Shown here: positions 8,163 to 62,280 of the stretch, in pieces
How the letters are laid out: the number at the start of each line of letters is the position of its first letter
Position numbering within the stretch: position 1 is the first letter of the stretch
Source: Symbiodinium sp. CCMP2592
Lineage: Eukaryota > Sar > Dinophyceae > Suessiales > Symbiodiniaceae
DNA: 64,000 nt
Direction: 5' to 3'
Assembly (NCBI GenBank): GCA_905221615.1
Contig: CAJNDT010006134.1
Location: forward strand, 1-64,000
Program-made: the position numbers and the translations under genes
The notes under the pieces: model-generated
The model's input: only the letters and a program-made list of their open reading frames with translations
Databases searched by the model: none
What the model was told of the DNA's origin: nothing

Positions 8163-8360
8163 CACGCGGATCGACTGCCCTTCTCGGTTCGTGGGCACCG
8201 TTGGCCGGGTGTCAGGTGTTGAGTCGATGGTACCTGGACCGCCTTGGGGCCAACGTGCCAGGGCAGTGGCATATGACACCCGGGCACATGGGCTAAAGTG
8301 CCGGGTGGGGTGGTCCAGTGGTTGTGGCTTGCTTTCAGCTCCCAACCAGGAGGGGAGGCC
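8163..8360 (+). repeat. Structured repeat, copy A1
   Basis: First of three near-identical tandem copies. Pairing visible: ATCGACT with AGTCGAT; GTTGGCC (8200-8206) with GGCCAAC (8248-8254). Hairpin 1 is TGCCA (8256-8260) with TGGCA (8267-8271). The linker ATGACA (8273-8278) follows. Hairpin 2 is CCCGG (8279-8283) with CCGGG (8301-8305), plus an inner CAC/GTG pair closing the loop ATGGGCTAAA. It ends in GGGGAGGCC. Strand is given by the conserved element reading + and is not proof of transcription. Confidence 0.8.
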
Positions 8361-8370
8361 ATCCATGCCA

Positions 8371-8565
8371 CGGATCGACTGCCCATCTCGGTTCGTGGAC
8401 ACCGTTGGCCGGGTGTCAGGTGTTGAGTCGATGGTACCTGGACCGCCTTGGGGCCAACGTGCCAGGGCAGTGGCATATGACACCCGGGCACATGGGCTAA
8501 AGTGCCGGGGGGGGTGGTCCAGTGGGTGTTGTTCGCAATCTGCTTACAGCCCTGAAGGGGAGGCC
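8371..8565 (+). repeat. Structured repeat, copy A2
   Basis: Near-identical to A1, starting again at GGATCGACTGCCC and keeping both hairpins and the ATGGGCTAAA loop. Confidence 0.8.
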
Positions 8566-8632
8566 ATCCATGCTTGTCACGTTAGTGAGCCTTGCGACTT
8601 GGAGCGACAGAGGCAGAGTGCCACCTTACCCA

Positions 8633-8838
8633 CACGGATCGACTGCCCATCTCGGTTCGTGGACACCGTTGGCCGGGTGTCAGGTGTTGTCGATGGTAAC
8701 TGGACCGCCTTGGGGCCAACGTGCCAGGGCAGTGGCATATGACACCCGGGCACATGGGCTAAAGTGCCGGGTGGGGTGGTCCAGTGGTTGTGGCTTTTTT
8801 ATTTTTCTCCCAACCAGGAGGGGAGGCCATCCATGCTT
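8633..8838 (+). repeat. Structured repeat, copy A3, with flanking partial copy
   Basis: Third near-identical copy. It is followed at about 8872-8965 by a partial element (GTTGCCTTACTTAAG, GGTTGCTCCCCACACC, GTTGGCC) that matches the 5' half of the 61.1-kb copy. Confidence 0.8.
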
Positions 8839-9261
8839 GTCACGTTAGTTAGGGAGCCTTGCGACTTGGGTCGAGCCTCTCGAGGTTGCCTTACTTAAGT
8901 CCCTGCCCCATCGGGGTTGCTCCCCACACCGTTGGCCAGGTCTAAGTGTTCGGTTTGAATCCAAGCCTAGTGACCGCCTTCTCTTCCATTTCCTTCTCTC
9001 CCATCGGTCTTCATCGGCTTCCAGCCCATCGAGAAGTGGATGCCAACTGCTGGGATCTCAGCATCAGCTTGCTTCAGCTACTTCCATTATTATGGTACAG
9101 TCCTGGCACCGAGGCTCATGACGAGGATCCTGAGGACAAGCTGCCATCGCAGAGGACAAGCTGCCTTGCATAGTCAGTGAGCGTGTCATGTATCGCAACT
9201 TGCCGCTGCAGCAGTTGTGCTCGCTGTTGCCCTGCGTAAGCTACTATAGTCGTGTTACAGC

Positions 9262-10124
9262 TGCTCTGTCTCAAGTCTAAGTCGTAGTAGGCCCCCCTGC
9301 AAGCCGGCAGATGTCGTCGATGTCGTGGAGTGACAGTGAGTCTCTGGGCTCGGACTGGGTTCTGGTTGACGATGAGGGTGCAAGCACTGCGGGCTCGGTC
9401 GCGGACAGTTTTGACGACGATGATTCTGTGATTCCGTTCGACACGATGCTAGAGGAGTGCTTTACGACATCCTGGATGTTTCTGAATTCTCAAGAGCGTG
9501 GGCAAGTCTTGCAAGTAGCCTGGTCTGTCAATGAGCAGATCATGTTCACACTCTTTCCGAGACTTCGGCGGGATTTTCGGCAAGGCAGAGTGCCAGGAAT
9601 TTTATATTACAATGTGTCAGACGAATTTGTGTCGTCACTGATTCAATGATTTGTCGTGTTTGTACAGCCTCCGAGACCGTATTATTACGGATGTTGGGGA
9701 AGGCAGAGTGCCGGGTTTGCGTGTGTTTAGAGGATTTTGAATTCGACGATCTCGCCAGCAGAGCTAGACTGTCCGATTTGAGACCTCAGCGGTAGTGTGC
9801 GCAACTTGGATTCAAAACGGTTACCCAGCATGACATGCTGACTACACAGTGCCGGGTGGCAGTGCTGTCCTCAGGACCCTGCTGTCTCCGAGGCTGGCTG
9901 CCTGCCTGCCTGCCTGCATAGTCTGTCAGTGAGTTGCCTTGCACCATACATGATCGACATCTGCCGGACAGGGAATCAAGTGATTCATTCATACTGATGT
10001 AACAGTAGTAACACAATGTTACATATCATTGGTTAATGTACTGTATAGTGATGCATTAGTCACTGTTAATGTTTTAATCGTTGGACAATTGTGTGCTCGA
10101 TGAAAGCAGTGATGCCGACGACCT
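9262..10124 (+). repeat. 865-bp tandem duplication, left copy
   Basis: Runs from CTGCTCTGTCTC to GATGCCGACGAC and is repeated immediately downstream. Carries a small ORF and two GGCAGAGTGCC motifs at equivalent positions to those of the right copy. Confidence 0.85.
9311..9649 (+). CDS. Small acidic hypothetical protein, left copy (112 aa)
   Basis: Begins MSSMSWSDSESLGS and has an acidic DSFDDDDS patch and a hydrophobic core including LNSQERGQVLQVAW. The micro-hairpin encodes QGRVPG near residue 93. The right-hand duplicate keeps the whole frame with many amino-acid changes but no stop, which favours a real protein. No family recognised. It could also be an exon of the downstream phosphatase gene. 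Confidence 0.5.
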   Translation: MSSMSWSDSESLGSDWVLVDDEGASTAGSVADSFDDDDSVIPFDTMLEECFTTSWMFLNSQERGQVLQVAWSVNEQIMFTLFPRLRRDFRQGRVPGILYYNVSDEFVSSLIQ

Positions 10125-10986
10125 GCTCTGTCTCTAGTCTAAGTCGTAGTAGGCCTCCCTGCAAGCCGGCAGATGTCGTCGATGTCGTGGAGTGACAGTG
10201 AGTCTCTGGGCTCGGTCTCGGACTTATTGGCTGTTGGCGAGTTTGCAAGCACTGCGGCGTTTGGGGGTTCGTTTGTGGGCTCGGTCGCGGACAGTTTTGA
10301 CGACGATGATTATGTGATTGATTTCGACGAGCTGCTAGAGGAGTCCTTTTCGACATTGTGGATGTTTCTGAATTCTGAAGAGCGTGGGCAAGTCTTGCAA
10401 GTAGACTGGCATATCAATGACATGATCCTGTGCGTACTCGTTCCGAGATTTGTGCGGCAAGGCAGAGTGCCAGGAAATTTACATTACAATGTGTCAGACG
10501 AATTTGTGTCGTCACTGAATCAATGATTTGTCGTGTTTGTACAACCGTATTACGGATGTTGGGGAAGGCAGAGTGCCGGGTTTGCGTGTGCTTAGAGGAT
10601 TTTGAATTCGACGATCTCGCCAGCAGAGCTAGACTGTCCGATTTGAGACCTCAGCGGTAGTGTGCGCAACTTGGATTCAAAAAGGTTACCCAGCATGACA
10701 TGCTGACTACACAGTGCCGGGTGGCAGTGACGTCCTCAGGACCCTGCTGTCTCCGAGGCTGGCTGCCTGCCTGCCTGCCTGCATAGTCTGTCAGTGAGTT
10801 GCCTTGCACCATACATGATCGACATCTGCCGGCCAGGGAATCAAGTGATTAATTCATACTGATGTAACAGTAGTAACACAATGTTACATATCATTGGTTA
10901 ATGTACTGTATAGTGATGCATTAGTCACTGTTAATGTTTTAATCGTTGGACAATTGGGTGCTCGATGAAAGCAGTGATGCCGACGA
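10125..10986 (+). repeat. 865-bp tandem duplication, right copy
   Basis: Second copy, highly similar in the ORF flanks, with small indels in the coding part. Both embedded GGCAGAGTGCC motifs (10461, 10567) are retained, so they predate the duplication. Confidence 0.85.
10173..10526 (+). CDS. Small acidic hypothetical protein, right copy (117 aa)
   Basis: Paralogue of the 112-aa protein. Same start, DSFDDDD patch, LNSEERGQVLQVDW block, QGRVPG encoded by the micro-hairpin, and the same VSDEFVSSL end. An in-frame insertion and several substitutions distinguish it. Function unknown. Confidence 0.5.
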   Translation: MSSMSWSDSESLGSVSDLLAVGEFASTAAFGGSFVGSVADSFDDDDYVIDFDELLEESFSTLWMFLNSEERGQVLQVDWHINDMILCVLVPRFVRQGRVPGNLHYNVSDEFVSSLNQ

Positions 10987-11110
10987 CAGTTTCAAGGTGC
11001 TCAGGGAGTTCCGAGGCAGAGTGCCAGACTTCTGCTGCTGACCATCAGAATCAGGCCAATCACATTGACCTTGGCAGTGATTACTGGAACGAAGCCGTGC
11101 AACAACTTCG

Positions 11111-12226
11111 GTGGAATTGTTTACACTGTGGCAGATCAGCTGCCGACTATACCACTGGGCTGCACAATTGGATCAAAGAATCAAATTGGCAGTTGATGCC
11201 ATCTCAGATTTCGGAGATATGGATATGAAGTTGTACAAAGCATGGACCGGCCAGACAGATATGCTGCCTGGGTCGATCCCGCCACCTCGGCCATGCCAGC
11301 ATGATGTCGAGACGGGGCCCATGGATGATGTTTTGATTTACGACCATCCCCAGTGGCAACTGTTTGTTGGCAGTATTGGTTGCCCGGTCCGATATGACCA
11401 GCTCCGGGTCAAGCCTGACATTGTCATCTCTATGAATGCAGATGACAGACCTCGGAATTTTGAGCCATGGGACTCGTATCAGTATTTGGCGAATTGTGGA
11501 CCGTTTGGCACTGCACATCTTCGGTATGGTGGCTGGGATCAAACACATGCCAATGACTTTGATGCTGAACAAAGAACTCATGAGTTCAAGAGCATTTGGC
11601 GCCGCCTCATTTCAGATTTCAGAAAGATTATGATGTGCTGGCAGCGCTCAGAAGAGGAGTTCAGCCAGAGTCAAAGGCAGAGTGCCAGCAAGGGCAAAAT
11701 GATGGGCAAGGCCATTGGCAGCAAGGGCAAGACAAGCAGCAAGGGCTACAGCGGCCCCTGTCAGGTTTCCAATCATATGGCATCGACGAAGGGCTCATTT
11801 GGCTATGGCTGCTCCTATGACAAGGGCTTCAGCAAGGGAAGTGACATGGGCAGCCTGTTCGGAAGAGCCGCTGATGGAAGGCAGAGTGCCGATGGAAGGC
11901 AGAGGGCCTTGAAGGTGGCCGATGAGACATTCCCTGGTGAGCTCGGTAATGCTCTTGCTTTGTTGGAGGCGATGAAGCTTCAGGGAGGTGGTCGGAAGCG
12001 TGGAGGCAAGAAGAGGCCAATTCGTGTGCTTGTCCATTGCTACGGTGGCATTAACAGGACCTGTGCTGCTTACTGTGTCCTAGTCATGGCCTTTGCCTCG
12101 ATGACCATGGAACAAGCCATTGTCAAGTGGATCAAAAACCGAGCCTACTATGCTCCATTCCGGGATCGTGAGTACATGATTGAAGCACTGCTGGAAATGC
12201 AGGATGAGCTGCACACGTACAGTTGA
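11111..12226 (+). CDS. Dual-specificity-phosphatase-like protein
   Basis: The C-terminal half carries the Cys-X5-Arg P-loop as HCYGGINR. The catalytic Cys codon is at 12038-12040, residue about 310 of this frame. It is followed by a helix and the AIVKWIKNR segment typical of the last DSP helices. An N-terminal block (YDHPQWQLFVGSIGCPVRYDQL) resembles the opening strand region of the fold. The usual general-acid Asp was not placed. A Lys/Gly/Ser-rich linker (about residues 185-275) separates the halves and contains two micro-hairpin copies translated as RQSA. Expected activity is phosphoprotein or phosphoinositide dephosphorylation, from the motif alone. The true start is uncertain; an acceptor near 11142 (TGTGGCAG) suggests upstream exons, perhaps near 11030-11110. 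Confidence 0.65.
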   Translation: MELFTLWQISCRLYHWAAQLDQRIKLAVDAISDFGDMDMKLYKAWTGQTDMLPGSIPPPRPCQHDVETGPMDDVLIYDHPQWQLFVGSIGCPVRYDQLRVKPDIVISMNADDRPRNFEPWDSYQYLANCGPFGTAHLRYGGWDQTHANDFDAEQRTHEFKSIWRRLISDFRKIMMCWQRSEEEFSQSQRQSASKGKMMGKAIGSKGKTSSKGYSGPCQVSNHMASTKGSFGYGCSYDKGFSKGSDMGSLFGRAADGRQSADGRQRALKVADETFPGELGNALALLEAMKLQGGGRKRGGKKRPIRVLVHCYGGINRTCAAYCVLVMAFASMTMEQAIVKWIKNRAYYAPFRDREYMIEALLEMQDELHTYS

Positions 12227-13438
12227 TCATCGACACTGAACCCGAAGTCCATGGTCAAACAGTTCTGCGCCAATGAATGATTCTGAGCCGTCGAAATTTG
12301 TGTCCCGACACTGGCCCAGCCAGAGAGTCCTGGACCCGACACTGGACTGCTGGCTGGAAGTGAAACACAGTCCTTACCTTGATAAGACTAATAGTTACAT
12401 TCCCACTTTCAGCTGGCAGTCACAGCTTAATTCGTGCTTTTAAACCTGGCTGCCGGTGTTACTGACTGAGCTTAAAAAGAAAGTGAGATCATGCCCGTCT
12501 CGGTTGTGGAAACTGTCAGTTCATTTGTCGGTTGTGCCGACATGGTGATCAGGGCCGCTGGGGCGATTGGATGAGTGAATCCAGCCGGCGACTCAGTGGG
12601 TGCAAGTGTGACTTTAACAGTCAGTCTCCGGTGATTGTAATGAGTGCTCATTTTTGCCTACTTGTGCTGTTGCAGCAGTCTGGGTTCAATTCAAGTGTAA
12701 GGCAGAGTGCCCTTGTCCCAATTGTGCAGTGGGCAAGTCATTATCCGCCATGGAAAACAAAGGGGCAGGCCGCCAGCGCACTCAGCTGCAAGAGTTTTCA
12801 AGTTGGCAGCTGTCCAACTTGAACAACGCCGCTCATTCATCCCAAAGAACAAGTCAGGTCGGGAAGGGAGGAACTGTGTGCCGGAACCCTTCGGGCACTA
12901 AGTTCAGGGTGAAATGGGGTTGATGGGGTTGGAGAAGTTGGATGAGGCGGTTTCCGATCAAAGAAGCGAAAACATTCGACGTGTTTGTATTCCTGTGAGG
13001 AGCGTGGCATGTCTTAAACAACAGCGCCCCAGCTCCCCAGCAGGGCTAGAATTCTGCACGGTTCCCACAGAAACAAGCGCAAGGAATGCCAGTAACGGAA
13101 GGGGGCATCAGCAAAGCCCTGAGCATCGCATAGCACTCGACCAAACAACCGAGCCATCACTGTCACCAGCAAGTGTGCAACCAAAATGCGCCTGTTCAAA
13201 TGCAACGGCAGCTGGCATGCACAAGCAAGCCATCCACACCAACGCCACGGAAACAGCTTGAAGAAATTCGCATGTCCACTTGCACAAGGCAGTTGCTGAC
13301 GTTCTGCAAGCCAGTTTGAAGGCCCGTGTCAGGGACCGCCTGTGGCAATGTACTTACTTTGACTGCACCTCGCACAGAAGCCTCGCAGCCTTTTGCAGAC
13401 CGCAGACAACAGACATGTAACTTTGGCTTAGGTCCCCG
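12227..13438. other. Intergenic, no firm gene
   Basis: Contains a doubled CCCGACACTGG around 12304-12345 and one micro-hairpin at 12701. A short ORF near 12654-12923 has a CPCPNC start after the motif but no recognisable family. Confidence 0.4.
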
Positions 13439-13529
13439 GACCTTCCAAAATCCCATAATTCAGGAATATGTACCTTAAATTATTATGGGGAGCCTATCGT
13501 AAGAATTAATTAAAGGATTTTGGAAGGTC
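13439..13529. mobile_element. MITE-like inverted repeat, about 91 bp
   Basis: Ends are a perfect 15-bp inverted pair, GACCTTCCAAAATCC (13439-13453) and GGATTTTGGAAGGTC (13515-13529), with a second inner pair CCCATAAT/ATTATGGG. AT-rich interior, no ORF. A simple hairpin-forming repeat is the alternative. Confidence 0.5.
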
Positions 13530-13939
13530 TGATCTTTAGGTAGCTCCGAGTCGTTCTTGGCCGTGCCGTGCTCGTAGGCCGTAGGCTGTGCGGTAGCAAA
13601 GGTGTGTGTTGGCCTATTTGCAGGGCTCACGTGACTCACGTGGGACTCGCAACGAAGCCTGTACAAGGTTCTCGGGTCAGGGCCGGTTCCGCTTTGTTTT
13701 TGGCAGGCCTGGCAGGTGGGTGGGTTGGGGCTGTGGCCTGCGAAAGCCCTTTCCGAGTGCTACAGCGCATCGACATGCCAGCCGAAAAGCAGAAAGTTGA
13801 GGGGCTTCCTCCGGTTCTCCGGGGCTGCGACATGCATGTCCATTGTCATGCGGTTCTCCTTTGAATGTTGGTACGTAGTATGCAAGATTTTGCTGCACCA
13901 TGCGGCTGCGGCATGACCACAGTCATGCAATCAGGCAGC

Positions 13940-14060
13940 AAACGCTGAAGCCCCAATCCCTAAAATCCTGCACCTTAAAATACAACACCCGAACAAAATC
14001 TAAACACCATAACAGACCCTAACCCCTAAGACCTAAGACCCTGACAATCCTAAAATCCGG
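13940..14060. repeat. Degenerate CCCTAA-like tract
   Basis: Repeated CCTAA/CCCTAAC/CCTAAAATCC words, similar to the tracts at 181-342 and 46727-46772. Most of 13530-14380 otherwise shows no gene. Confidence 0.5.
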
Positions 14061-14381
14061 AGGCTCCCAGACCCATGTGAAGATGCAGCCTGAGGCAATA
14101 GCGGATGGCAATGCTGGTCTGCCCTCAGGGCGGTCAGCCTGCCATCACTCCCCCCAGCCCGCTCTAGGCTGCAACAGTTGCACATAAAGAATGTAGAGAA
14201 TGTCCTATGAATACTTCTCTTCCTCTTTAGCACTGCCGGCTTGACAGCGTGGTTGGAGCATGTCCAAGGAACTCTCTCCGAGCCTGGAGCTGGTCTCTAT
14301 AATAGATATATATATATACACTTATTATATCTAATGGTTGTATGAAATAGATTGTCTCTTTCATTGGACCCATAGCATCAT

Positions 14382-14700
14382 ATAGAACGACCTCAAAGCC
14401 CCAAGCCTCTACGAGAAAGCTCGCAGCAAAGGACAACTGGAGAATTGCAAACTGTGAAATCTGCTGCAGCATGCTGGCGCCTTTATTAGGCGGACAACCT
14501 GCAGGACCTCCGTACTTGACAGGCTTCTGAACTCCAGAACACTCAAACGTCCATGTTGGGACTTCAGCTGTAGAACGACCTCGAAACCCGAAGCCTGGAA
14601 GAGAAAAACTCGCAACAAGGACAACTCTAGAATGCAAGTATTGCAATCTGCTGCAGCATGTTGGCGCATTTAAGCGGACAACCTGCACCGGCTATTCCAC
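14382..14700. repeat. Diverged direct duplication, period about 187 bp
   Basis: AGAACGACCTC..., CTCGCA(G/A)CAA, CTGCTGCAGCATG and GCGGACAACCTGCA recur in the same order in two copies. Confidence 0.6.
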
Positions 14701-14799
14701 GTCGATCAAGCAGGCATCTGATGCCGGAGGGATGAAAATTTTTGTGAAAACAGACGATCATTGCTGGAGGAGCTGGCTTAGTTTCCAAAGCTTCGGTTT

Positions 14800-17700
14800 T
14801 TACTTCTTCTTATCCTTGTCCTTCGGCTTCCCTTTCGGATTCGCATCGAGCTTCAACCTGGGAGTTGCTTTGTTTGGTTGGCTGGCCTCGGCCTGCACGC
14901 ATGCTGCATCCTCCTTCTTGGCGGCCTCCTTCTTCGTCTTTGCATCCTCCTCCTTGTCTTTCCCCTGCTTGGATTCCTTTGCTTCCTTTTCCTTCCTCAA
15001 CCTGGCTTCTTCCGCCTCCTTTTCCTCTGCTGCCTTCGCTGCGTCCATGCGTTCCTCCTCTTCCTTTTGCTTCCTCTTCCTGGCTTCCTCTGCACACTTT
15101 TCCTCTGCTGCCTTCGCTGCCTGCATGCGTTCCTCCTCTTCTTTTTCCTTCCTCAACCTGGCTTCTTCCACCTCCTTTTCCTGTGCTGCCTTCGCTGCCT
15201 GCATGCGTTCCTCCTCTTCCTGTTCCTTCCTCTTCCTCGCTTCTTCCACCTCCTTTTCCTGTGCTGCCTTCGCTGCCTGCATGCGTTCCTCCTCTTCCTT
15301 TTCCTTCCTCATCCTGGCTTCTTCCGCTTCCTTTTCCTCTGCTGCCTTCTTTGCCTGCATGCGCTCCTTCTCTTCTTTTTCCTTCCTCAACCTGGCTTCT
15401 TCCGCCTCCTTTTCCTCTGTTGCCTTCTTTGCCTGCATGCCTTCCTTCTCTTCTTTTTCCTTCCTCAACCTGGCTTCTTCCTCCTCCTTTTCCTGTGCTG
15501 CCTTCTTTGCCTGCATGCCTTCCTTCTCTTCTTTTTCCTTCCTCAACCTGGCTTCTTCCGCCTCCATTTCCTCTGCTGCCTTCTTTGCCTGCATGCCTTC
15601 CTTCTCTTCTTTTTCCTTCCTCAACCTGGCTTCTTCCTCCTCCTTTTCCTGTGCTGCCTTCTTTGCCTGCATGCCTTCCTTCTCTTCTTTTTCCTTCCTC
15701 AACCTGGCTTCTTCCTCCTCCTTTTCCTGTGCTGCCTTCTTTGCCTGCATGGCTTCCTCCTCTTCCTTTTCCTTCCTCAACCTGGCTTCTTCCACCTCCT
15801 TTTCCTGTGCTTCCTTCTTTGCCTGCATTCCTCCTCTTCCTTTTCCTTCCTCAACCTGGCTTCTTCTGCTTCCTTTTCCTCTGCTGCCTTCTTTGCCTGC
15901 ATGGCTTCCTCCTCTTCCTTTTCCTTTTCCTTCCTCAACCTGGCTTCTTCCACCTCCTTTTCCTCTGCTGCCTTCTTTGGCTGCATGCCTTCCTGGTCTT
16001 CTTTCTCCTTCCTCAACCTGGCTTCTTCTGCCTCTTTTTCCTGCTCCTGTTCCTTTCCTTCCTTCGCTTCGAGTTCCTCCGCTTTGTCCTTCTTGTCAAG
16101 CTCTTCCTCCAGACTGTGAGTGAGTGGGCTCCGAGCTCGGGCTGGGACGTGGAGCATAGAAGTGGTGATTGAAAATGTTGGATTCTAGTTTTACCTAGGT
16201 GTGCAGGATATTTCAAGGCCTTTCAAAATGCACATGTTTAACGTCTGGGTTTGGGATTCAATCTTTTCGGGGTAATGGCCATGGGGAATGAAAGATGGAT
16301 TTGACTGCACTAGCACAGCAAGGCAACAAGGAACCTTCAAGGTCTTCAGGGCCGTCGAAACCGGCTGCAAGATCTCACCCATCTGCACTCTGGGCTGGTT
16401 CTCGGATTCGCGCAATAAGAAAGCCACACTCTGGGTGCGTTCTTGAGACTGCACATGCAACAGCGGGATGCGGATGCCAAACGTATCACCCTGGCCGCCG
16501 ACCTGGCGCAAAAACAGCACATGACTTATTAGTGCGCAGTGGGCTTACACGATTTGTTCTGTTGGGTTTGGGTTGGGACTGCATGGAAGAATCTGCAAAC
16601 CCTGCCTGAACAGAAACCAGAGCTCCGGGTGGTATGTAGAGCAGGTCCCCCTCAGAGACGGTGCCCATGAAGAACAGCTTCGCTTTTCCCATTTCCTTGA
16701 CATCGTCCGGCGTTGCCTTGCTCACACTGTCTGTCACATCCTTGAAGAAGTCCTTCGGCGGCTCACCTTCATCGTCCTTTGGCACCCAAATCGAAGCCAA
16801 GTAGCTTCCGGCATGATGGTACCTCAAGCTTCCTAGCAAGCCCGGCTCAAATTTCGCAATGCTGCAGTGATTCTGCGCAATAGCGAACAAGGCAGGCCGC
16901 AACAACTTCTTTGCAGCCTCTCCCATAACCAAAGGTGTCGAAGGAAACGTCTTGCTGTAAGCAGACTGCAAGTCCTCAAGCCCAAGCAACAAAGATTCGT
17001 CCAAAACCTCTTCCGCTTGCAAGTGCAAAGAATTTCGCGCTCTCGGGAACTTGTTTAGTCGCACGTCCCTCCGTCACGCGCAAAGCAGACTGCTTGAAAG
17101 CTTGCGCAAACTCTTGCAACAACTCGTTCAAATCCGCAAACTGGTTCATGCTGCCTAAGCCGGCACGCTGGACCCATGGCAAATGCAAGAGCTCATGAGC
17201 ACTAGTGGCCCAGTCAAAGCCTGCATCAGCCGCGTACCTGGGGAGCTCTGGCAACACGGACATCAGCTCAGGATTCAAGACCGCGTGCACACTTTTCGCT
17301 TTGACTTTGGGGCGTTTGGCTTTGGAATCCTTTTCTTGCTTTGCTTTCTTTTCCTCTTCTTTCTTCTGCTTCTCTGCTTCCCGCTTCTGATTCGCTTCGA
17401 ATCTCTTGCGCGCATTGGTTAGATCTGACTGGGCTGCTTTCGTAGCTTGGATGAGCACCATTTGCACTCTCTTTTGCTCTTTGAGCTTTTCGGTCACTGC
17501 CTTCAGGTCATCTCGATTGGCCTTGGATACTAGATTGTGACTACTCGACTTTAGAAGGGGCTCCCACCCACCCTGTAATTGTGGTATAATAGGAATATAA
17601 TAGGGCCCGATATAATTTTTGTATCCTTGTAGTCGCTATTACAGGGTGGGTGGGAGCCCCTTCTAAACTAGACTATACTAAGCAGTAACAGTTTCAATCT

Positions 17701-20700: not shown

Positions 20701-20763
20701 GAGAAGTCCAGCAGCTTTCAGGTCAAAACTTGTCATTGTGACAACATGCACGGCGCTCATCAT
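14800..20763 (-). CDS. Multi-exon minus-strand gene: zinc-ribbon-like, helical and coiled-coil exons
   Basis: Read 5' to 3' on the minus strand. About 20763-20045 is an acidic then Lys-rich segment followed by a Cys-rich block (CGLCRKW, CKCKACNNG) that looks like a small zinc-binding domain. 19430-19130 encodes NVMDFIVRLKKSEGTRYARIAEMMWEIEYIEWA in pieces. 19003-18680 and 18460-17900 are helical exons. About 17497-17040 has a KKEEEKKAKQEKD coil. About 17020-16500 contains GDLLYIPPGALVSVQAG, reminiscent of a cupin or JmjC barrel edge. 16114-14800 is the 78-bp-repeat coiled coil ending KPKDKDKKK-stop. I recall similar composite genes in Symbiodinium, function unknown. It may be two genes rather than one. 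Exon edges are approximate, and the last exon carries a frameshift near 15828. Confidence 0.45.
14990..16040 (-). repeat. 78-bp coding repeat (26-aa coiled-coil units)
   Basis: About 14 units of the form MQAKKAAQEKEEEEARLRKE plus KEEKEG, read on the minus strand. A 4-nt deletion near 15828 (GCCTGCATTCCTCC where sister units have GCCTGCATGGCTTCCTCC) puts three units and eleven units in different frames. Confidence 0.85.
17550..17667. mobile_element. MITE with perfect 30-bp terminal inverted repeats (118 bp)
   Basis: Left end TTTAGAAGGGGCTCCCACCC... (17550-17579) is the exact reverse complement of the right end (17638-17667, ...GGGAGCCCCTTCTAAA). If the repeats are taken to begin at GAAGGGG, both ends abut TA, compatible with a Tc1/mariner-type TA target duplication. 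The 58-bp interior is AT-rich with no ORF. It sits in a probable intron of the minus-strand gene. Confidence 0.85.
19780..20040. other. Intron-like, nothing recognised
   Basis: Between coding pieces of the minus-strand gene. No motif or ORF of note. Confidence 0.3.
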
Positions 20764-21507
20764 GGATCTAGGAAATCAAGGAACAACACAGTGCCTGCAC
20801 AACATGACGCGTGTGACACGCAAGTGGCCAAAACATGACCAGCCGACCAGCCCGCCGCTGTCCAGGCCTCAAGCAATTCCATACTACTTAGACACATAGT
20901 CTGTGGCGGGGCCAGTCCATGTCATGGGAGTCATGGGGACTGAAGTGGGATGGCAGGGGAATCATTCTTTGCTCCTGCACTTGCAAAAAGCACTTTCACA
21001 CAGGCTCTGCTTCGGAGAACTTCAGTCTGCTGACCACGACTCTGATGACCTTGAGCTTGGCGTTTATGCCAGCTTTGGCACTATCAATCCTGGCGCCCCT
21101 CACTCAACGCTGGCATACTGCAGCTGAGAGCAAACATAAGGACAGCTGTCAGCACATGCAGATGCATCCCATTGCCGGCCAACTCCCTCACCTTGCTGCT
21201 CGGCAAGATGCTCAAGCACCAGCGAAGCTCCTGCAGCGCGCCTGTCAGTTTCAATCACATGCGGGCTGAGGCTGAGATGCCAACCTACCTCAACCCCCCC
21301 TCCCCCACGCCCCTCAAGCAAGCCCCAACCTATGAACCGCGACGCTCAAAAGATCACAAGGCTGTCACAGACTCACAGGTGTGCGATATGATATGGCTTT
21401 GCATTACCCAACCCCCCACACATCCAGGACACCTCCACACTGCCCCCACCTCCACCACAAGTGAAGCAGGGCTCGTGAAACTGTGTGTTGAACTGCTGCA
21501 CGTGCCC

Positions 21508-23103: not shown

Positions 23104-23680
23104 TGATCGACGGACTTGAAACCAAAACTGCTGCCCCCTTTCTGAAGCCAGAACATACAAGAGGGGGAAGACTCTTTGGGAAGATGAAATTCAGCAGCGG
23201 CAGGGGCGGCAGGGGAGTGCTGACAGAAAGGGTTGGGGCGGTTTGGGTGGAAGTCTCTTTCTCTGGCTTGAACCGGGTCTTTTTTCTTTCTTCGCTCACG
23301 CTCCTCTCTTCGATCCTCGCTCTATCTTCGCTTTTCTCCTGTGTCTCTCTCTGTCTCTCTCTCTCTCTCTCGCTCGCTCTCTCGTGCTCACTGCGGCTCG
23401 GGCCACAGCATGCCAAGCTCAGCCTTGATCAGCGACAGCCGGCCCAAACTGCAACCTTTCGCGGAGAGAGAGAAAGAGAGACTTACCGAGGTTCACAAAG
23501 AGGACAGCCTCAGAGAGATTAGCTACTATTGCTAGTGCTGCTAGAACTGCTACCAATGTAGCACTAGCTAGCAGAAGTAGCAGTTATAGGAATATTTGCA
23601 CTGGTGCCGTAGGAGTAGTAGTATAGTAGTAGTAGTAGTAGTAGCAACAAAAGTAGTAGCAGCACTAGTCTCCGAATTCT
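23104..23680. repeat. 5' flank with (CT)n tract
   Basis: CT-rich run at about 23343-23385, pyrimidine-rich surroundings, and a short AGT trinucleotide run near 23620-23642. No gene recognised. It could be the promoter side of the methyltransferase-like gene, but no element is identifiable. Confidence 0.5.
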
Positions 23681-23684
23681 GTGT

Positions 23685-54823: not shown

Positions 54824-54982
54824 CCGGCCCTGCTGAAGGGTATGCGTACCGAGGGCAGGGTTGCTGCCTGCAGGTTTTCTGAGGGGAGGATGTGAGCTCA
54901 CAGCTGAAAGCCGGGCCGCTCAGGCCTGTCCTCCGATTGCGGTAGCAAAGACTGGACTCTTTGCAACGCGGAAAGTGCGAAA

Positions 54983-55015
54983 GTGCATGTATGTATGTAT
55001 GCATTATATGCATAC
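54983..55015. repeat. (ATGT)n tail at LINE 3' end
   Basis: GTGCATGTATGTATGTATGC followed by ATTATATGCATACACTTATTATG. Mirrors the repeat block at the 5' side. Confidence 0.7.
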
Positions 55016-55254
55016 ACTTATTATGAGGCATACTGCTTTCGAACATTAAACTACATCATCTATTAATAGCACTCTGTCTTCAAATATGTGTTCATCTAAT
55101 GATCATGTGCATAAATGCTTGTGTCGTCCAGTGGAACCTATTGCATGTGGTATTGAAACGGACATGACAATCAACTTCTAGTACCTGTTCGTACTATCCA
55201 ACACATATAGTTGCTTGCAGCTTGTTGGATCAAAGATATTTAAAGTTAAGCACC
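55016..55254. other. Intergenic, AT-rich
   Basis: No gene. Probable 5' flank of the next gene. Confidence 0.4.
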
Positions 55255-56136
55255 ATGGCACCGAAACCGAAGGCCAAACCGGCAGCAGCGGGGAGGATCG
55301 GCCGGGTGAGGACTCCGAAGCGACGGCCTCGTAGAGTGCCGCCAACCGGTGTGAATGGCATTGGTGAAGAAGGCGGTGGGGCGGAAGGCAGAGTGCCAGG
55401 GCCACCCAGGGGTCCGCCGCCGCCAACACCTGTGAATCAGCCACCTTTCCCAAGACCTCCCGCCCCTGCGCGACATGAGTTTGAGATTGCCCAAGCTGTG
55501 GCAGAAGCGTTGGACATTATGGAGACCCCGATCATGATCAACTTCGAGCCGGATGTGGTTACTGTTAGGGAGGGCCGCATTGTTCTGGTCACCCTTGAGA
55601 ACTTGACCCCTGAAGAGATGCAACGTCGGCAGTTGGCACGGCGAATTTGTGCCATGTGTTTCAATGCTCCAGACAACCCGCCGCCACCAATAGTGCCGCC
55701 AAGGCCGATGCTTGAAAATGGCTATCCTCGCCCTAACAATAACGCCAACAGTGGAGCTGCTGAAGGCAGAGTGCCAGAAGGCAGAGTGCCGGAAGGCAGA
55801 GTGCCAGATGAGTTCGAAGGTGGAGTTCGTGATCAAATTTTTTTTCGTTTGGAATCTCGCCCGGATGCCTGGTTGACTGGGCCAGCTCGTGCCGAAGGTG
55901 AGATTCACGCCTCAGACTCAGATGTGATTGAGGAAGGTGTTCGAGATGTTCGTCTTGGTGAGCTTGGAGGGCGGGGTCGTTTGGGGATTGATTATGGGCA
56001 CATCTCAGAAGAAGACCCGGGCTGGAGTCAGCGCGGCTCAGCGGATGATGGAGCCCCCTCAGATGTGATGGAGGAAGGTGAGGAGTCCGACTCTGAGGCT
56101 TCTTCCACTAATGCTGTTTGTCAGATGGAAGACTGA
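55255..56136 (+). CDS. Hypothetical protein with tandem EGRVP peptides (about 293 aa)
   Basis: ATG in an ACCATGG context at 55255 (MAPKPKAKPAAAGRIGR, basic). Pro-rich linker, then a compact domain (FEIAQAVAEALDIMETPIMINF ... VTVREGRIVLVTLENLTPEEMQRRQLARRICAMCF). An Asn/Pro linker follows, with three consecutive EGRVP from micro-hairpins at 55765, 55780 and 55795 (15-bp period); another lies at 55387. The acidic, Ser-rich C terminus ends VCQMED-TGA. Function unknown. Confidence 0.6.
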   Translation: MAPKPKAKPAAAGRIGRVRTPKRRPRRVPPTGVNGIGEEGGGAEGRVPGPPRGPPPPTPVNQPPFPRPPAPARHEFEIAQAVAEALDIMETPIMINFEPDVVTVREGRIVLVTLENLTPEEMQRRQLARRICAMCFNAPDNPPPPIVPPRPMLENGYPRPNNNANSGAAEGRVPEGRVPEGRVPDEFEGGVRDQIFFRLESRPDAWLTGPARAEGEIHASDSDVIEEGVRDVRLGELGGRGRLGIDYGHISEEDPGWSQRGSADDGAPSDVMEEGEESDSEASSTNAVCQMED

Positions 56137-56522
56137 TTATTTAGCTCACCAGCAAAGACTGCATAGAAGGCAGAGTGCCAATGCAGAATCTGCCTGACAA
56201 GTGGCTGCCACCTCGGTGGTCTCGCAATCGTCGAGTGATATGGATGGACTGCTGTGTGCGGTACCAGAAAAACGAGAATCGAGTGAGGGTCTGCCAGTGC
56301 TGTATTTGATTGCTTGAGCATGAAGTCATGGTCTGCAACAACTATGCCATGTGTGAATTTCAACAAGTGATGTCATCATGTCTGTCTCATCCTTGTGTTG
56401 TGATGGATCAATCGACTCACAAGTGTGTCAACTGCTGCATGCGCTGGTTCACAATTATGTGGTTAACTCGAACACTCTTGAGGTTAAGGTGTTTTGCACT
56501 TTCCTGGGTAAGACAGAGTGCC
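56137..56522. other. Intergenic or 5' UTR with motif and motif variant
   Basis: Exact micro-hairpin at 56169. A one-base variant GACAGAGTGCC at 56512-56522 abuts the ATG of the next gene. The open frame upstream of that ATG looks non-coding. Confidence 0.4.
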
Positions 56523-57596
56523 ATGGACAATGCAATTTCGAGTGCCATGTCTGCAGCAGCAGATGACCCGACTGAAACAAAAAGAAGACTGTTAGCAGAC
56601 ATTCGGCGGCAGTTTGATGCAAACATCGCACTGGAGAAGAGATTCTTGGCCATTTCGAGAGGACAGGATGTTCTGCGCCTTTGCGAAGCTGACCCGTCGC
56701 TTCTGGAGTTCCATAATGAAGGTCCTTATGAAGTTCTGCCTGAGTGCAACTATGATGTGATTCTTGAAGCCAGTGGGTCTTCCTGGATGATATCAATCTG
56801 GCAACAGATGTTATCAGAAACTTTTCCCATCATGACTCTGTGGCCATGGAAGAAACAGATGAGATTCCTCATCAACTTTTGTCATTGGAAGCGGAACATA
56901 AGGCAGAGTGCCAGGTTCCACTTCCTGGAGATCTTTGCAGGGCAGGGCAACCTCAGTCGGGAGATGCTCCGTGCTGGCTGGCAGGGGCTAGCCTTGGACA
57001 TCAGGTACGGCACAGATCATGATATTCTTTCTGTGAGAGGACGTCGCCTGGCTGTCAATGCTGTGTGTCAAACACACAAACACGGCCTGTTGTGGTTTGG
57101 AACTCCATGCTCTTCCTTCGTCCAACTCTGTAAATACAGTACTGGAAGGTCCATTGCCAATGACTGGATGGGAGAACCTGAGCGATCGCTGGCATGCCAA
57201 GAAGGCAAGCGTTTCATGTATGTGACGCTGCTGTTGACTTTGCTCGCGGCTTTGAATGACAACCGGTTTGTGATCGAGCAGCCTTGCTCCAGCATGCTGT
57301 TCGACATTCCACTCGTCGATCGTGTCATGGGAATGATCCAGGCTATGAAGGTCAAAACCTATGGTGGTGCCTTCGGCCAGACCATCCTGAAACCGCTTCA
57401 ACTGTGGAGCAACTGTCAGCACATCAATGGTATGCGGCGCAGCTATCCTTCCCATGTCAGAGGAAGTGCTGGTTGCGTTGATCGAGATGGTGAGAAGTTC
57501 ACCGGTCGTCCTGAAGATCTTCAGGTGTCAGAGGAGTACACCCGGGAGTTCGGCAAGGCTGTGGCCTTTCATATGATGAGTGATGTCCCAACATGA
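56523..57596 (+). CDS. SAM-dependent methyltransferase-like protein (C5-MTase-like)
   Basis: Start chosen at MDNAISSAMSAAADD (GCCATGG context). FLEIFAGQGNLSREMLRAGW from residue 134 matches a SAM-binding motif I. FGTPCSSFVQL has Pro-Cys at about 195-196 in the motif IV position. FVIEQPCSSMLF at about 250 stands where ENV-type motif VI is expected. The C terminus has YPSHVRGSAGCVDRDGEKFTGRPEDL. This suits a divergent C5-methyltransferase-like or related Rossmann enzyme; substrate not predictable. The micro-hairpin at 56902 encodes IRQSAR directly before motif I, at the domain boundary. The stop is followed within 13 bases by two further micro-hairpins (57609, 57625). Confidence 0.6.
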   Translation: MDNAISSAMSAAADDPTETKRRLLADIRRQFDANIALEKRFLAISRGQDVLRLCEADPSLLEFHNEGPYEVLPECNYDVILEASGSSWMISIWQQMLSETFPIMTLWPWKKQMRFLINFCHWKRNIRQSARFHFLEIFAGQGNLSREMLRAGWQGLALDIRYGTDHDILSVRGRRLAVNAVCQTHKHGLLWFGTPCSSFVQLCKYSTGRSIANDWMGEPERSLACQEGKRFMYVTLLLTLLAALNDNRFVIEQPCSSMLFDIPLVDRVMGMIQAMKVKTYGGAFGQTILKPLQLWSNCQHINGMRRSYPSHVRGSAGCVDRDGEKFTGRPEDLQVSEEYTREFGKAVAFHMMSDVPT

Positions 57597-58152
57597 ATTG
57601 TAGCTGAAGGCAGAGTGCCAATAAGGCAGAGTGCCATAATTCTCTAGAGTTAAATGAGCTTGCTTCATTTTTCGACATTCTGTCTTGTTGGTATTCTGCT
57701 TTCCAATGTTGGGACTGGGTTGAGCCCTGGACCCCGTCCGTTCCCTCCACGAGGTGCCGAGGAAAATCATCGCCGCCTCGTGGAAGGATCTGAGTGATCC
57801 GAGCTGGTGCAGCTGTGCAATGAAAATGTAGAGAGCTTCAGTCACTCCGTGATCAGATGTGTTTGTCGGTATTGTCTCAGTTCGTATGCTGCTGTCGTGC
57901 AGGTGGCAATGACCTGGCTGGTGTCTCGAACTCCAGTTGCAGGCATCGGTGGCCTGTGTTAATCATTCCATGTGGTTGTCAGTTCAGTGCCATCTGCGAT
58001 AGTTTCCTGTCTCAAGTTCGAGTGACATGATGTGGCTGCTGACATGTCATCGTGAGTCTTTGGGTTGATTTCTTAAGAATTCAATGTGTTGTGAACTGGG
58101 GCTTGTGACACAAGTGCAGGTGTGTGTCAGTATTTAGTAAGATTCAAGTACA
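57597..58152. other. Intergenic with two micro-hairpins at its start
   Basis: Motifs at 57609 and 57625. No other recognisable feature. Confidence 0.5.
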
Positions 58153-59205
58153 GTGTTGCTTTGGAGGATTTCGGTGATGCTTCTGAAACTGTGGGTCATG
58201 CTATTGCTCCTTGATGGGCAATTGCTTAACTTGGAAAATGATGCAAAACTGCCAGCGAGAGCAGCTTGGCTCTCACAGGGCGAACTGTGGTGGCGTCTGG
58301 ACTTGTTTTTCGATGAGAGCAACAGGAACGGCTCAGAACGTCGACAGTACCACAAAGGGTACAACTTCTTCAGTGATCTTCTCAGGAAGACCCCCTTGGC
58401 TGCGAACTGGGGGTCACATGTGCAAAGTCAAAAAGGCAGAGTGCCAAACCCTGATGCTGTGCAGGAGGATGTGGCATCTTCCACAGCCTTGGCCCTATTC
58501 ATGTTGCAAGCATCCTTCGACACAAGGACAGACGCCCACAGGGAATGGTACAAGAGCAAACTGAAGGATGCTATGGTACGTGTGTGTGAAACTATCATTG
58601 ATGAGCCTCTGGTCATGCAGTTGGATGAAGGCAGAGAGTCATGGTTTCTTCAACCAACTGGGTTGGTTTCAGGCTTTGCCGCTTGGATGATGAGTTGGCT
58701 GCCAGGCAACACGTCCCGATCTTTGCGTGAGCTTTGGGAATCTATGTTCAATGCAAGGACGCTGTCTTCATCTCTCCGAGATGAATCTGAAGGCAGAGTG
58801 CCACGAGATTGGGAGGAGGTTGAAACTAGCATCTACGACATCATCGCCTTTGCAACCATGGCAAAAAAACACAGAGCGCTTCAACCGTCGGGGCAGGCTC
58901 ATTGATTTGCCAAGACAGTCGTGAATGCCTTCATGCACATACATGAGTGTCTGTCCGAGACATTGTCAGCCGGCCTCCAGGTGTATGTCATTGGGCACTA
59001 CGTGAGTGTACATGATGCTGGTGTGCCTGTGACGTCTCGCAGGGCACTTCTGGGCAAGCGTGTTCCATTGAAAAAGACTGTGGACATCAAAAGCATCTGG
59101 AACTTGCTAGAGGGCGCTGCAAAAAGTGGGACCTCTTTGCGACAAGCCCTCATTCTCAAGAACCAGGACGAACGCAGCGACCTGCATGGTTCCTTGGTGA
59201 TTTGA
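58153..59205 (+). CDS. Hypothetical protein interrupted by one in-frame TGA
   Basis: Frame 1 is open from 58153 to TGA at 58903-58905, then continues from 58906 to 59205 in the same frame (FAKTVVNAFMHIHECLSETL). Internal parts look natural (AAWLSQGELWWRLDLFFDES, HREWYKSKLKDAMVRVCETIIDE). The first ~20 residues are very hydrophobic and could be a signal segment or an out-of-frame artefact. Micro-hairpins at 58435 and 58792 encode KGRVP and EGRVP. The TGA may mark a short intron, a real end, or decay. It could be the 5' part of the gene at 62384. Confidence 0.45.
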
Positions 59206-59900
59206 TATGGAGTAGAATGTTGTTTTGTTAACCAGTTGTTTAAGATTAGTGACTTCTTTGTCACACATTCATTTGATGCCACGTACCCGCGCCACAGTCG
59301 AACTAAATTCGACTACCGCTCTTGCCATGGCCGACCCGACGTTCGGCTCTTGCGCCAAGCTGTTGGCCAAGTCCAGCAGAAGGTAATGTCGGGGGCAGAA
59401 GTATCCGCGGCGAACTCTGGGATGGCACCACGACGACCACGACGTGCTGCTTCTTTGCGAGCAGAGGGCGACATAAGCATAGCGCGGGCAAATGCTTGCA
59501 GCTGCTAGTGGTCGTTGAGAGCCTTCGCCTGATATCCCCATGGCAGAGCGGGGTGACCCCATATCTCGGCCGAATGGGGGTGGCCTAAGTCTACGGTCCG
59601 CATGACTGTCAGAGCACGTTCGTCTTTGCAAAGACGCCGGGGAGGCCGTTACAGAAAGGGATGCTTAAGTCAGGTTGTGCATTTAATATTTATGAAAGGC
59701 AGAGTGCCAGTAAAACTTCTAAGGGTTCAGGGTTTAGTGGTTTGCTGCGCTTGCTGTTGATCAGAAAATCCTTGTCGATTCGCTTGCCGGCATGTGGAGG
59801 CATGTGTGTGGCCGCTACCCAGGACTCGCTGTGTCTCGCACAGGGCTCTGAGGGAAGAACGTAGTGCAGGGCAACTTATAGTCGCACACCATTAGCCGGG
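59206..59900. other. Non-coding DNA with duplicated segments
   Basis: 59218-59270 (GTTGTTTTGTTAACCAGTTG...) recurs at 61449-61500. A hairpin-capable GACCCCAT...CTCGGCCGA...ATGGGG lies at 59555-59580, and GGGAGGCCGTTACAG at about 59640 resembles the end of the structured repeat. Confidence 0.5.
59690..59795 (+). repeat. Paralogous segment with one micro-hairpin
   Basis: TATGAAA, one GGCAGAGTGCC (59698), AGTAAAACTTCTAAGGGTT and CCTTGTCGATTCGCTTGCC. Compare 60223-60340. Confidence 0.9.
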
Positions 59901-59924
59901 GTCACTTCCCTGAGGGTTCGCTAG

Positions 59925-60060
59925 TGCAGGGCAGCTTGTAGTTCACACCGTTAGCCGGGTGTGGCGGGCCGCTGTTTGGGATTTTCGGGCTCTTGAGGCC
60001 AACGGGGATCTGCTGACCAGATCCCTATGACAGCAGGACACATGGGCCTGCTGGGAGCCC
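59925..60060 (+). repeat. Structured repeat, copy C
   Basis: GTTAGCC upstream, GGCCAAC at 59997-60003. Hairpin 1 is GGGATCTG (60005-60012) with CAGATCCC (60018-60025), a perfect 8-bp stem. Linker ATGACA (60027-60032). Hairpin 2 is CAGCAGG (60031-60037) with CCTGCTG (60047-60053) and a shortened loop. Confidence 0.8.
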
Positions 60061-60222
60061 CCCATTTATGTCTCTGCACGCTCTGGCTAGCCAGTAGTCA
60101 GTGCGAGATGATGACCCACTCGGTGGCAGCAGGGGAGGCTCTTGAACTGTTGATCGACCGAGTGCGCAACATGGAAGGCCGAATCGAGTGAGTAGTCATT
60201 AAGTGTCAGGTTGTGATCAAAT

Positions 60223-60340
60223 TTATGAAAGGCAGAGTGCCAAAGGCAGAGTGCCAGTAAAACTTCTAAGGGTTTTTTAGTAGGGTTTAGTGGTTTGCTG
60301 TGCTTTCTTTTGATCATAAACGTCCTTGTCGATTCGCTTG
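60223..60340 (+). repeat. Paralogous segment with two tandem micro-hairpins
   Basis: Same flanks as 59690-59795 but with GGCAGAGTGCC at 60231 and 60245 (14-bp period). Confidence 0.9.
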
Positions 60341-60399
60341 CCCGACCTAAACCTGAGCAGCGGGCTGGCCGAGGGGGCCCTAGAGACCTGCCAGGTTCC

Positions 60400-60615
60400 A
60401 TCTTGTTGGCCGTGTTGGGGGCAGCGATCCATCCGGAGCTGAAAGCTTGGCCACTGACGCCTGCGTGGCCTCGTGGCGGCCACCCTTTGGGCCAACTCCC
60501 CTACAGCCCGAGGGGTATGACAGCAGGGCGATGCGCTAATGCGCCTGCTGGGGGTGGCTTAAATGGGGGGCGGGTGTGTCCTTCCCCCCCCGGTGAGATC
60601 CTAAAAGGGAGGCCG
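60400..60615 (+). repeat. Structured repeat, copy F
   Basis: GTTGGCC (60405-60411) with GGCCAAC (60490-60496). Hairpin 1 is CCCCT (60498-60502) with AGGGG (60511-60515). ATGACA (60517-60522). Hairpin 2 is CAGCAGG (60521-60527) with CCTGCTG (60544-60550), loop core ATGCGCTAAT. GGGAGGCCG follows near 60607. Confidence 0.8.
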
Positions 60616-61110
60616 CGTGAGTTGTGTTGTAAAGAGAAGGGGGAGATAGTGCCTTCTTCAGTTCTTGCCTGTGCTCACTTTTGCGCGCAAGTGGCCCTGG
60701 GATCAGGTCTATCGTTGATCGTTTGGCATGGCCTGTAGTGGCAGTGTAGCAGCCTGCTGTAAGTTTCCACTACCCCAGCCGCCAGCTGTGCCTAGATCCT
60801 GCTACTCACAGGGTGATTTCGGCCTGTGCCTGGTTTGTTTCTATCGGCGCGTTGCGGGCGATGTTTACGCCGAAGCAAACCAAGTCTCCGGGATCTGTTA
60901 CATCGCAGGTGTGCCAAATGGCCTGCTGAGCAACAGCTGCGACGGGATCCGGCACAGCGCTGTCATCTTAATTCATTACCTGTGAGCATGGCGACCCACC
61001 TTGGCCGAGTGGGGTGGATTTCAGCAAATGGGGGAGGCCGCTAACCCATGATTAGGCTATATCTCTTTCTGCTGAGCACATGCTTTTCTGTTCTCTTGGA
61101 TCGACGACAG
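60616..61110. other. Non-coding, no gene recognised
   Basis: Contains a second copy of a hairpin-capable segment, GACCCACCTTGGCCGAGTGG (60993-61012), and a GGGAGGCCGCTAACCC end-like motif near 61031. Confidence 0.4.
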
Positions 61111-61111
61111 A

Positions 61112-61400
61112 GGCAGAGTGCCGAGGCAGAGTGCCAGTCGAACCTCTTCGGTGTTGCCTTACCTAAGGAGTAAACCCCTGCCCCACCAGGGTTGCTCCCC
61201 ACACCATTGGCCATGTGTGAGGCGTTCGGTTTGTCTGTGTCACAGCCTTGAGGCCAACCTATCCCAGGGGCAGGGGGTAGATGACAGCCGGGCACATGGG
61301 CTAATGCGCCGGCTGGGGCTGTGACCTGGTGACATCGAAGCAGTCATGCAAGTCACCGGAAGCAATACCGGACAAAGAAGGGAGGCCGTTCTTGGGACAT
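61112..61400 (+). repeat. Structured repeat, copy B, preceded by two micro-hairpins
   Basis: Motifs at 61112 and 61125. Element: ATTGGCC (about 61206-61212) with GGCCAAC (61252-61258). Hairpin 1 is CTATCCC (61259-61265) with GGGGTAG (61274-61280). ATGACA (61281-61286). Hairpin 2 is AGCCGG (61286-61291) with CCGGCT (61309-61314) and loop ATGGGCTAAT. AAGAAGGGAGGCCGTTC follows near 61376. Confidence 0.8.
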
Positions 61401-61639
61401 GGCTGTGTTGTTGAGCTGGTGTGTTCCTCCGTCTCATTCATAGTAGACTGTTGTTTTGTTAGCCAGTTGTTTAAGATTATAGTGAATTCTTTGTCACACC
61501 AACCTTACCAACAAGTCGCGGTGTGTCCAGTTTTGATTCACCAGCCGCGCTTGCCTGCCGATGGCCGGGCATGGGGTCGCTTTGGGGGACCATGGAAGGA
61601 AGACGGAACCGAGGACTTGTGACCTCTGCCAGGGCCATC

Positions 61640-61810
61640 TGCGCAACGCCCTCAGGTACTGAGGGTCGTCGCGCCGATGGCGTTGGCAGAGGCCTGTGGC
61701 CAACCACCAGAGCGGACACCTGGTGATGACAGCCAGACACATGGGCTAACGTGCTGGCTGGGTCAGAGCTCGGCACCCGAGTGTCCCCCTTTGCAACATG
61801 GGAGGCCAAA
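61640..61810 (+). repeat. Structured repeat, copy E
   Basis: GTTGGC (61682-61687) with GCCAAC (61699-61704). Hairpin 1 is CACCAG (61705-61710) with CTGGTG (61720-61725). ATGACA (61726-61731). Hairpin 2 is AGCCAG (61731-61736) with CTGGCT (61754-61759), inner CAC/GTG and loop ATGGGCTAAC. GGGAGGCC near 61800. Confidence 0.85.
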
Positions 61811-61839
61811 TATCGAGCAGAAGTACAGTAATTAGAGTG

Positions 61840-62280
61840 TCAGTCGAACCTCCTCAAGGTTGCCTTACCTAGCTGGATTTTCCCTCGGATCGTGTTGTCC
61901 GGGCCAGACTTCCAGGTTCCGAACAAAGAAGGGAGGCCGTCCGTTCTTGGGACATGGTTGTCTTATTGAGCAGAGAACCTTGCTCGGCTTGCTGTTCGGT
62001 TGTGTTTGTCACGAGTGCCAACATGTTCAGAATGGGGTTTGGTGTGTGTTGCTCTACCAAGCGGCAGCTGCATGCCCGCCAATTTTGGCAGCTACCGACA
62101 CACTGTTGGCCGGGTGTGGAGCGAGGGCAAGGGCACTGGGGTCCCGCAGTCTAGGGGGGGGTTGGGGCCAACGGCCAGCGGGCATCTGGCGATGACATCT
62201 GGACACATGCGCTAACGTGCCAGGTGGCCCCTCCCGAAAATGACGTAGCCTCGGTGACCCAAGCTCTTCCATGGGAGGCC
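61840..62280 (+). repeat. Structured repeat, copy D
   Basis: GTTGGCC (62105-62111) with GGCCAAC (62166-62172). Hairpin 1 is GCCAG (62174-62178) with CTGGC (62186-62190). ATGACA (62192-62197). Hairpin 2 is ATCTGG (62197-62202) with CCAGGT (62220-62225, one G-U pair), inner CAC/GTG, loop ATGCGCTAAC. An upstream TCGAACCTCCTCAAGGTTGC half and GGGAGGCCG near 62272 flank it. Confidence 0.85.

Follow-up and report, generated by a model that had tools for sequence, protein, structure and literature searches.

Many small nucleolar RNAs (snoRNAs) are hosted by introns and are released from the intron after its excision, and introns of the GC-AG type are in use in dinoflagellates. Intron-hosted snoRNAs, pistol and HDV-like self-cleaving ribozymes and DNA transposons with terminal inverted repeats (TIRs) and DDE transposases are the described systems closest to the one that we analyze here: a family of structured RNA units carried by a giant TIR transposon in the dinoflagellate Symbiodinium sp. 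CCMP2592. The analysis covers the first 64,000 nucleotides (nt) of contig CAJNDT010006134.1 (G000:C5272:1-64000), hereafter the window. It contains two groups of units, and the 3' group is predicted to lie in an intron of a transposase-like gene.

Results

Architecture of the RNA units

The first-pass annotation of this DNA reported eight copies of a repeat made of two adjacent hairpins, and all eight are present, stems included, where they had been placed. It overlooked a partial copy at 8888, as well as diverged copies or remnants that end at 8115, 59640, 61032 and 61931. The units are plus-strand domains, roughly 200-300 nt long, and those in the window measure 195 to 356 nt (Table 1). The two hairpins (H1 and H2) were correctly described, but the description was incomplete: it lacked an outer stem (S/S'), the placement of GTTGGCC in the loop of a hairpin (H0), a second pseudoknot and the conserved end GGGAGGCC. 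From 5' to 3' the order is 5' motif, strand X, H0, S, CTTGR, GGCCAAC, H1, ATGA, H2, S' and GGGAGGCC.

The 5' motif is variable, of the YYACC type, and is missing in units B and E. The 7-nt loop of H0 (e.g. CACACC-GTTGGCC-GGGTGTG) is complementary to the downstream GGCCAAC and forms pseudoknot 1 with it; the first-pass annotation had already paired these two heptamers. The outer stem encloses both H1 and H2 and has a unit-specific sequence (GACCGCC/GGTGGTC in A, GCCACCC/GGGTGGC in F, CACAGCC/GGCTGTG in H, GGTTCCC/GGGAACT in the unit of locus L045). H2 contains a bulged purine and the loop ATGSGCTAAN. GGGAGGC lies 66-114 nt 3' of ATGA in the 17 units measured, and the same motif is found in L053 and others. 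The 5' motif and GGGAGGCC vary too little to inform on pairing between them.

In most unit types the loop of H1 is complementary to the upstream strand X, forming pseudoknot 2. Within the window the pairs are AGGGCAGT/ACTGCCCT in A, CAGCCCG/CGGGCTG in F, GGGGCAGG/CCTGCCCC in H, GCGGGCAT/ATGCCCGC in J and GGACAC/GTGTCC in I; at other loci they are AGGTGCAG/CTGCACCT (L045), GTGCCG/CGGCAC (L041) and AGTGCC/GGCACT (L049). This pseudoknot was tested in unit E and is not supported there. It contains a bulge in L044, and the F and I matches shrink to 5 letters in copy L025. An extra hairpin 3' of the outer stem was considered as a general feature and dropped, since only the subfamilies whose loop is GGGAATCT show it clearly. 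At locus L032 (G000:C12:196600-199400) unit H occurs four times with a 720-bp period.

Covariation of the paired strands

Pairing was assessed in two alignments. Alignment A2 holds 14 cores, hand-picked for variety. Alignment A3 holds 22 hand-picked cores, of which 12 are rows of A2 (window unit I, whose outer stem is mismatched, and a near-duplicate of A were left out) and 10 come from other loci (L041, L043, L044, two from L045, L049, two from L051, L052 and L053; the coordinates chosen for L052 leave out its 5' S strand). In A2, 91.1% of the cells are paired and both sides change in 17 of the 23 pairs, with a covariation score of 0.627 against 0.171 +/- 0.023 after shuffling (reached by 0 of 500 shuffles) and at most 0.207 with slid partners; because the rows are related and hand-picked, these controls, like those of A3, are not to be taken as probabilities. 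The covariation persists in the larger alignment A3, where 94.4% of the cells are paired and the score is 0.623 against 0.179 +/- 0.018 (again 0 of 500), with at most 0.157 for slid partners. Both sides change in 16 of the 23 pairs of A3, a tally equalled by 43 of 500 shuffles.

Strands were also exchanged between units. Across all 40320 permutations of eight units, a fit at least as good as the real one arose 6 times for H1, 8 times for H2, 13 times for S, 14 times for pseudoknot 2 and 2286 times for H0. For 13 of 17 units (L053, which has no H0, and the near-duplicates E3, L043 and L051b were left out), the corresponding counts in 200000 random pairings were 0 for H1, 2 for pseudoknot 2 and 162 for H0. 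Of the 13 H1 loops, 4 paired best with strand X of their own unit; related units have loops in common. The named pairs of A3 include more G-U than A-C, in a ratio of 39:7 (15 to 4 distinct states), which points to a plus-strand RNA.

Changes at the same position are also seen between copies of the element. H1 of unit J reads GGCCAG...CTGGC or GGTCGG...CCGACC, depending on the copy. Unit E has either GGGCTC/GAGCCC or GAGCTC/GAGCTC as its outer stem and either GGGGATCTG/CAGATCCCT or GCAGAGAGC/GCTCTCTGT in H1, and unit H has either CACAGCC/GGCTGTG or TTTTGCC/GGCAAAG in S, while one pair of its H1 is T-G, T-A or C-G. Pairing is not kept by every change: S is partly broken in the L032 copy of unit H (H_L032) and absent in window unit I.

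Judged from these alignments, the RNA structure is under selection, as had been proposed from the compensatory changes: the covariation lies above the shuffled and slid controls, and the strand-swap tests agree. A new noncoding RNA family, also part of the first-pass annotation, is a fair reading of these sequences. Novelty concerns the RNA family itself. A search of the window with Rfam 15 gave no match; for 61130-62300 (6 rows) and at seven further loci (17 rows, most of them from a single low-complexity stretch of L052), all matches fell below the gathering threshold of the family. In the accessible portions of the open-access literature we noticed nothing on the unit RNA.

The carrier transposon

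Alignment to the window starts at about 7.72 kb for the copies on contigs C58, C169, C127 and C80 and for a copy with a deletion on C198; three of these have a common right end that falls beyond the window (C58:933562-964031). The element is ~30 kb long and terminates in ~50-bp imperfect inverted repeats. The three copies examined at both ends are flanked by 5-bp target duplications, namely TATAG, TACTG and AAAAA, the last of low complexity. Both terminal inverted repeats and a target site duplication, the marks of a TIR DNA transposon, were thus found. With at most two mismatches, the TIR pattern occurs at 287 + 359 places in the parent assembly and its backward control at none. This assembly (1.098 Gb, 5383 contigs) contains 100-N gaps and near-identical contigs, so pattern and copy counts are assembly counts and not independent insertions.

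TIR pairs less than 10 kb apart were found five times in contigs C1-C152 (in C29, C51, C102, C113 and C125). Because four of these five are without a listed unit, the units seem to be dispensable in cis for movement.

Two stretches of the window, at about 12873-37000 and 46857-54991, are absent from the copies on C58, C169, C127 and C80. The second insertion (~8.1 kb) carries a 2684-codon frame (46769-54823, plus strand) with matches to endonuclease/exonuclease/phosphatase and reverse transcriptase domains, a ubiquitin carboxyl-terminal hydrolase match at the C-terminus and a sub-threshold zinc finger. Overlapping BLAST ends hinted at a 19-bp target duplication for it, which was rejected as the two 19-mers differ. 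The first, ~24-kb insertion has long minus-strand frames at 26397-29117 and 29118-32474 without a Pfam match.

The transposase-like gene and its predicted intron

The main exon of the transposase-like gene holds a 962-codon frame, complete in L016:2222-5107, with 25 relatives. ADxSTHS, LDQGSIG and KIVEDxH are conserved in an alignment of 25 sequences (the query and 24 of the 25 relatives) and could hold the D, D, E triad of a candidate DDE transposase. The 962-residue protein had no match in Pfam, NCBIfam or PDB sequence searches. Among 36 copies scored, the open frame spans 962 codons in 35 and 950 in one; in the scored copy C2551, stops fall inside the matched stretches. The named relatives of the window's proteins belong to Polarella glacialis and Symbiodinium, in agreement with the dinoflagellate origin presumed in the first-pass annotation.

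In relatives whose N-terminus is longer, the alignment covers 58.25-59.19 kb as far as residue ~341 and continues at 62.38 kb with residue ~339. Removal of the predicted intron between these blocks restores the frame, giving D-L-S-G-V-P-E against D-L-A-G-A-S-E in the relatives. It is because of this alignment and the frame-restoring GC-AG joint that we place the 3' array in a predicted intron, on the sense strand. The 5' unit group (8154-8990) lies ~2 kb upstream of the transposon's first gene (10960-12226, plus strand). This gene is a conserved frame for which 12 relatives were found; its match to dual-specificity phosphatases is weak and does not reach the curated cut-off.

Units elsewhere in the genome

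Unit lists comprise exact-pattern matches only, and for the genome-wide core pattern they give the first 100 matches. The pattern GGCCAACN{12,30}ATGACAN{66,96}GGGAGGCC has 1038 + 952 = 1990 matches in the assembly and none in the backward control. A variant core has 26 + 16 matches, with none in the control, and these include subfamilies outside the transposon. No match to the core pattern was found in viral contigs, the one match in prokaryote contigs has neither GGCCAAC nor the partner stem in its surroundings, and a plasmid search with unit A gave no match.

In contig C497, coding parts of an unrelated gene flank two units (6623 and 6997) on the same strand. Protein P0038 aligns there with residues 510-608 at 4071-4358 and residues 609-715 at 7698-8018, followed by blocks at 8074-8235 and 8375-8671, and protein P0040 aligns with residues 345-417 at 6137-6370. 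P0038 was retrieved with a query assembled from frames on both sides of the units; its own exon order is independent of that query. Positions 6371-7697 are non-coding in both gene models, and this other unit subfamily is predicted to be intronic in the unrelated gene, on its sense strand.

Other features of the window

Table 1 Positions of the transposon, the transposase-like gene and the RNA units in the window
Feature	Position	Strand	Remark
Carrier, giant TIR transposon copy	7728..64000	+	left end TCCTTAACCC at 7728, preceded by TGATA; right end outside the window
Unit A	8154..8360	+	
Unit B	8371..8565	+	without clear 5' motif; in tandem with A
Unit C	8620..8828	+	
Partial unit D	8888..8990	+	only strand X and hairpin H0
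Transposase-like gene, upstream part	58249..59183	+	aligned to P0009 residues 22-341; last exon end GACCT|GC; predicted from protein relatives
Predicted GC-AG intron	59184..62378	+	3195 nt; holds the 3' array; predicted from protein relatives
Unit E	59786..60141	+	two hairpins of H0 type; no support for second pseudoknot; H2 damaged in window copy
Unit F	60340..60614	+	
Unit H	61156..61387	+	
Unit I	61502..61807	+	outer stem mismatched in window copy
Unit J	62051..62280	+	
Transposase-like gene, start of main exon	62379..64000	+	962-codon frame complete in L016:2222-5107

Over the range 8612-63640, the plus strand has 58 occurrences of the 11-letter near-palindrome GGCAGAGTGCC and the minus strand has one (46703). 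All 58 plus-strand occurrences are within the transposon, with none in the left flank or the two nested insertions. The near-palindrome is also found inside open frames, which translate it as EGRVP, AECQ or RQSA, and the relatives of the transposase differ in its number. The same portions of the open-access literature yielded nothing that we noticed on such a repeat in dinoflagellates. Left of the transposon, a perfect 52-bp tandem repeat is followed by an array built on ATTAACCGCTGGG (6230-6879).

Discussion

The structure and its carrier are well supported and the introns are predicted from protein relatives; from these we infer how the units might work. Our preferred reading, to which we assign a probability of about 0.4, is that the units are a new structured intronic RNA family that acts in cis on the host transcript and is kept by the transposon for the expression of its genes. 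A cis role in host-transcript expression is favored because the units seem dispensable for movement and occupy predicted sense-strand introns. In this genome, many unit copies travel in the ~30-kb TIR DNA transposon. On the preferred reading, each unit would fold in the pre-mRNA and act on that same transcript, most likely as a protein-binding module governing the splicing, retention or export of a long intron. The transposon may then retain several units since its gene expression would depend on them.

Two observations weigh against the structure itself. Folding energy fails to separate cores from shuffles (z of -0.34 to -2.15 for eight plus-strand cores and, likewise uninformative, -0.04 to -2.63 for four minus-strand cores). 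Damaged units exist: at 61.7 kb the two strands of the outer stem do not match, and at 60.0 kb part of H2 is missing. Against the cis reading, the short transposon copies could hold diverged units, since the unit lists capture the exact pattern only. The gene models at C497 disagree, P0038 joining 4358 to 7698 and P0040 having coding sequence at 5364-6370, and a flanking exon was not recognised at C61, C3001 and C746. Finally, several units per intron are also compatible with a dosage-driven RNA acting in trans.

Such an RNA, hosted by introns, released from the excised intron as the core of a ribonucleoprotein and amplified by the transposon, is an unlikely explanation but one to be taken seriously. 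It would account for the predicted sense-strand intron positions in two unrelated genes, the tandem units, the compact fold and the conserved unpaired core of ATGA and ATGSGCTAA. Against it, we noticed no shared antisense or guide element, although no search for one was made, and the continued selection on units within transposon copies is more readily accounted for if the element benefits. The complex fold with its two pseudoknots, the invariant unpaired letters and the predicted intronic sense-strand setting would also suit a new self-cleaving or otherwise catalytic RNA; this we consider doubtful, as no Rfam ribozyme was found at threshold, no cleavage site can be named and much of the variation at unit ends is left unexplained. 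We regard as improbable, too, a doubly pseudoknotted intron module that would be catalytic or would stage the splicing of long GC-AG introns, spread through the genome by a giant transposon whose gene expression would require it. The CTAA that is invariant in the loop of H2 looks like a branch point, and AG|GC, with which the unit ends, is an acceptor beside a GC donor.

The remaining explanations fare worse. Two groups of units toward the two ends of the element, alike in orientation, might suggest a feature of the DNA, that is, hairpin-forming or repeated binding sites for the transposase near the transposon ends. The preference for G-U over A-C on one strand, the second pseudoknot, the short TIR pairs without listed units (four of five) and the presence of the fold at loci without transposon matches make this very improbable. 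The first-pass annotation also raised the possibility of a retroelement RNA, and an endonuclease-reverse transcriptase frame does lie between the two unit groups in the window. We find this hardly credible: it fails because the reverse transcriptase belongs to a nested insertion absent from all four copies compared, and the carrier has TIRs, 5-bp target duplications and a transposase-like gene. The unremarkable folding energies would fit chance pairing in G+C-rich repeats; contradicted by the shuffled, slid and strand-swap controls, this explanation has a negligible probability.

If the cis-acting reading is correct, curated RNA libraries would lack a structured RNA family that is abundant in dinoflagellate nuclei and that selection maintains in predicted introns, both within a mobile element and within another gene. 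Two questions would become testable: by what route dinoflagellates process their unusual long introns, and how expression of a giant DNA transposon is controlled by the element itself.

Comparison with known systems

The Alu domain of the signal recognition particle RNA, RNase P, group I and II introns, the hammerhead, twister and the selenocysteine insertion sequence element were considered and dropped. The units resemble intron-hosted snoRNAs in the sense-strand intron position predicted at two loci, in their several copies and in combining conserved motifs with a structured RNA. Unlike snoRNAs, they have two pseudoknots, Rfam gave no snoRNA at threshold, and no C/D or H/ACA layout was noticed, the comparison with Rfam being the only one run. 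With pistol and HDV-like self-cleaving ribozymes, the units have in common a hairpin loop or strand that pairs into a stem-enclosed region. They differ in that their enclosing stem surrounds two hairpins, in a second pseudoknot that involves a loop and in their conserved letters, and are without an Rfam match at threshold.

The carrier's transposase-like protein departs from DDE transposases in its lack of Pfam, NCBIfam and PDB sequence matches. Like TIR DNA transposons with DDE transposases, the carrier has inverted repeats, target duplications and candidate D/D/E motifs, whereas its length of ~30 kb, its 5-bp duplications and the structured RNA units in a predicted intron set it apart from them.

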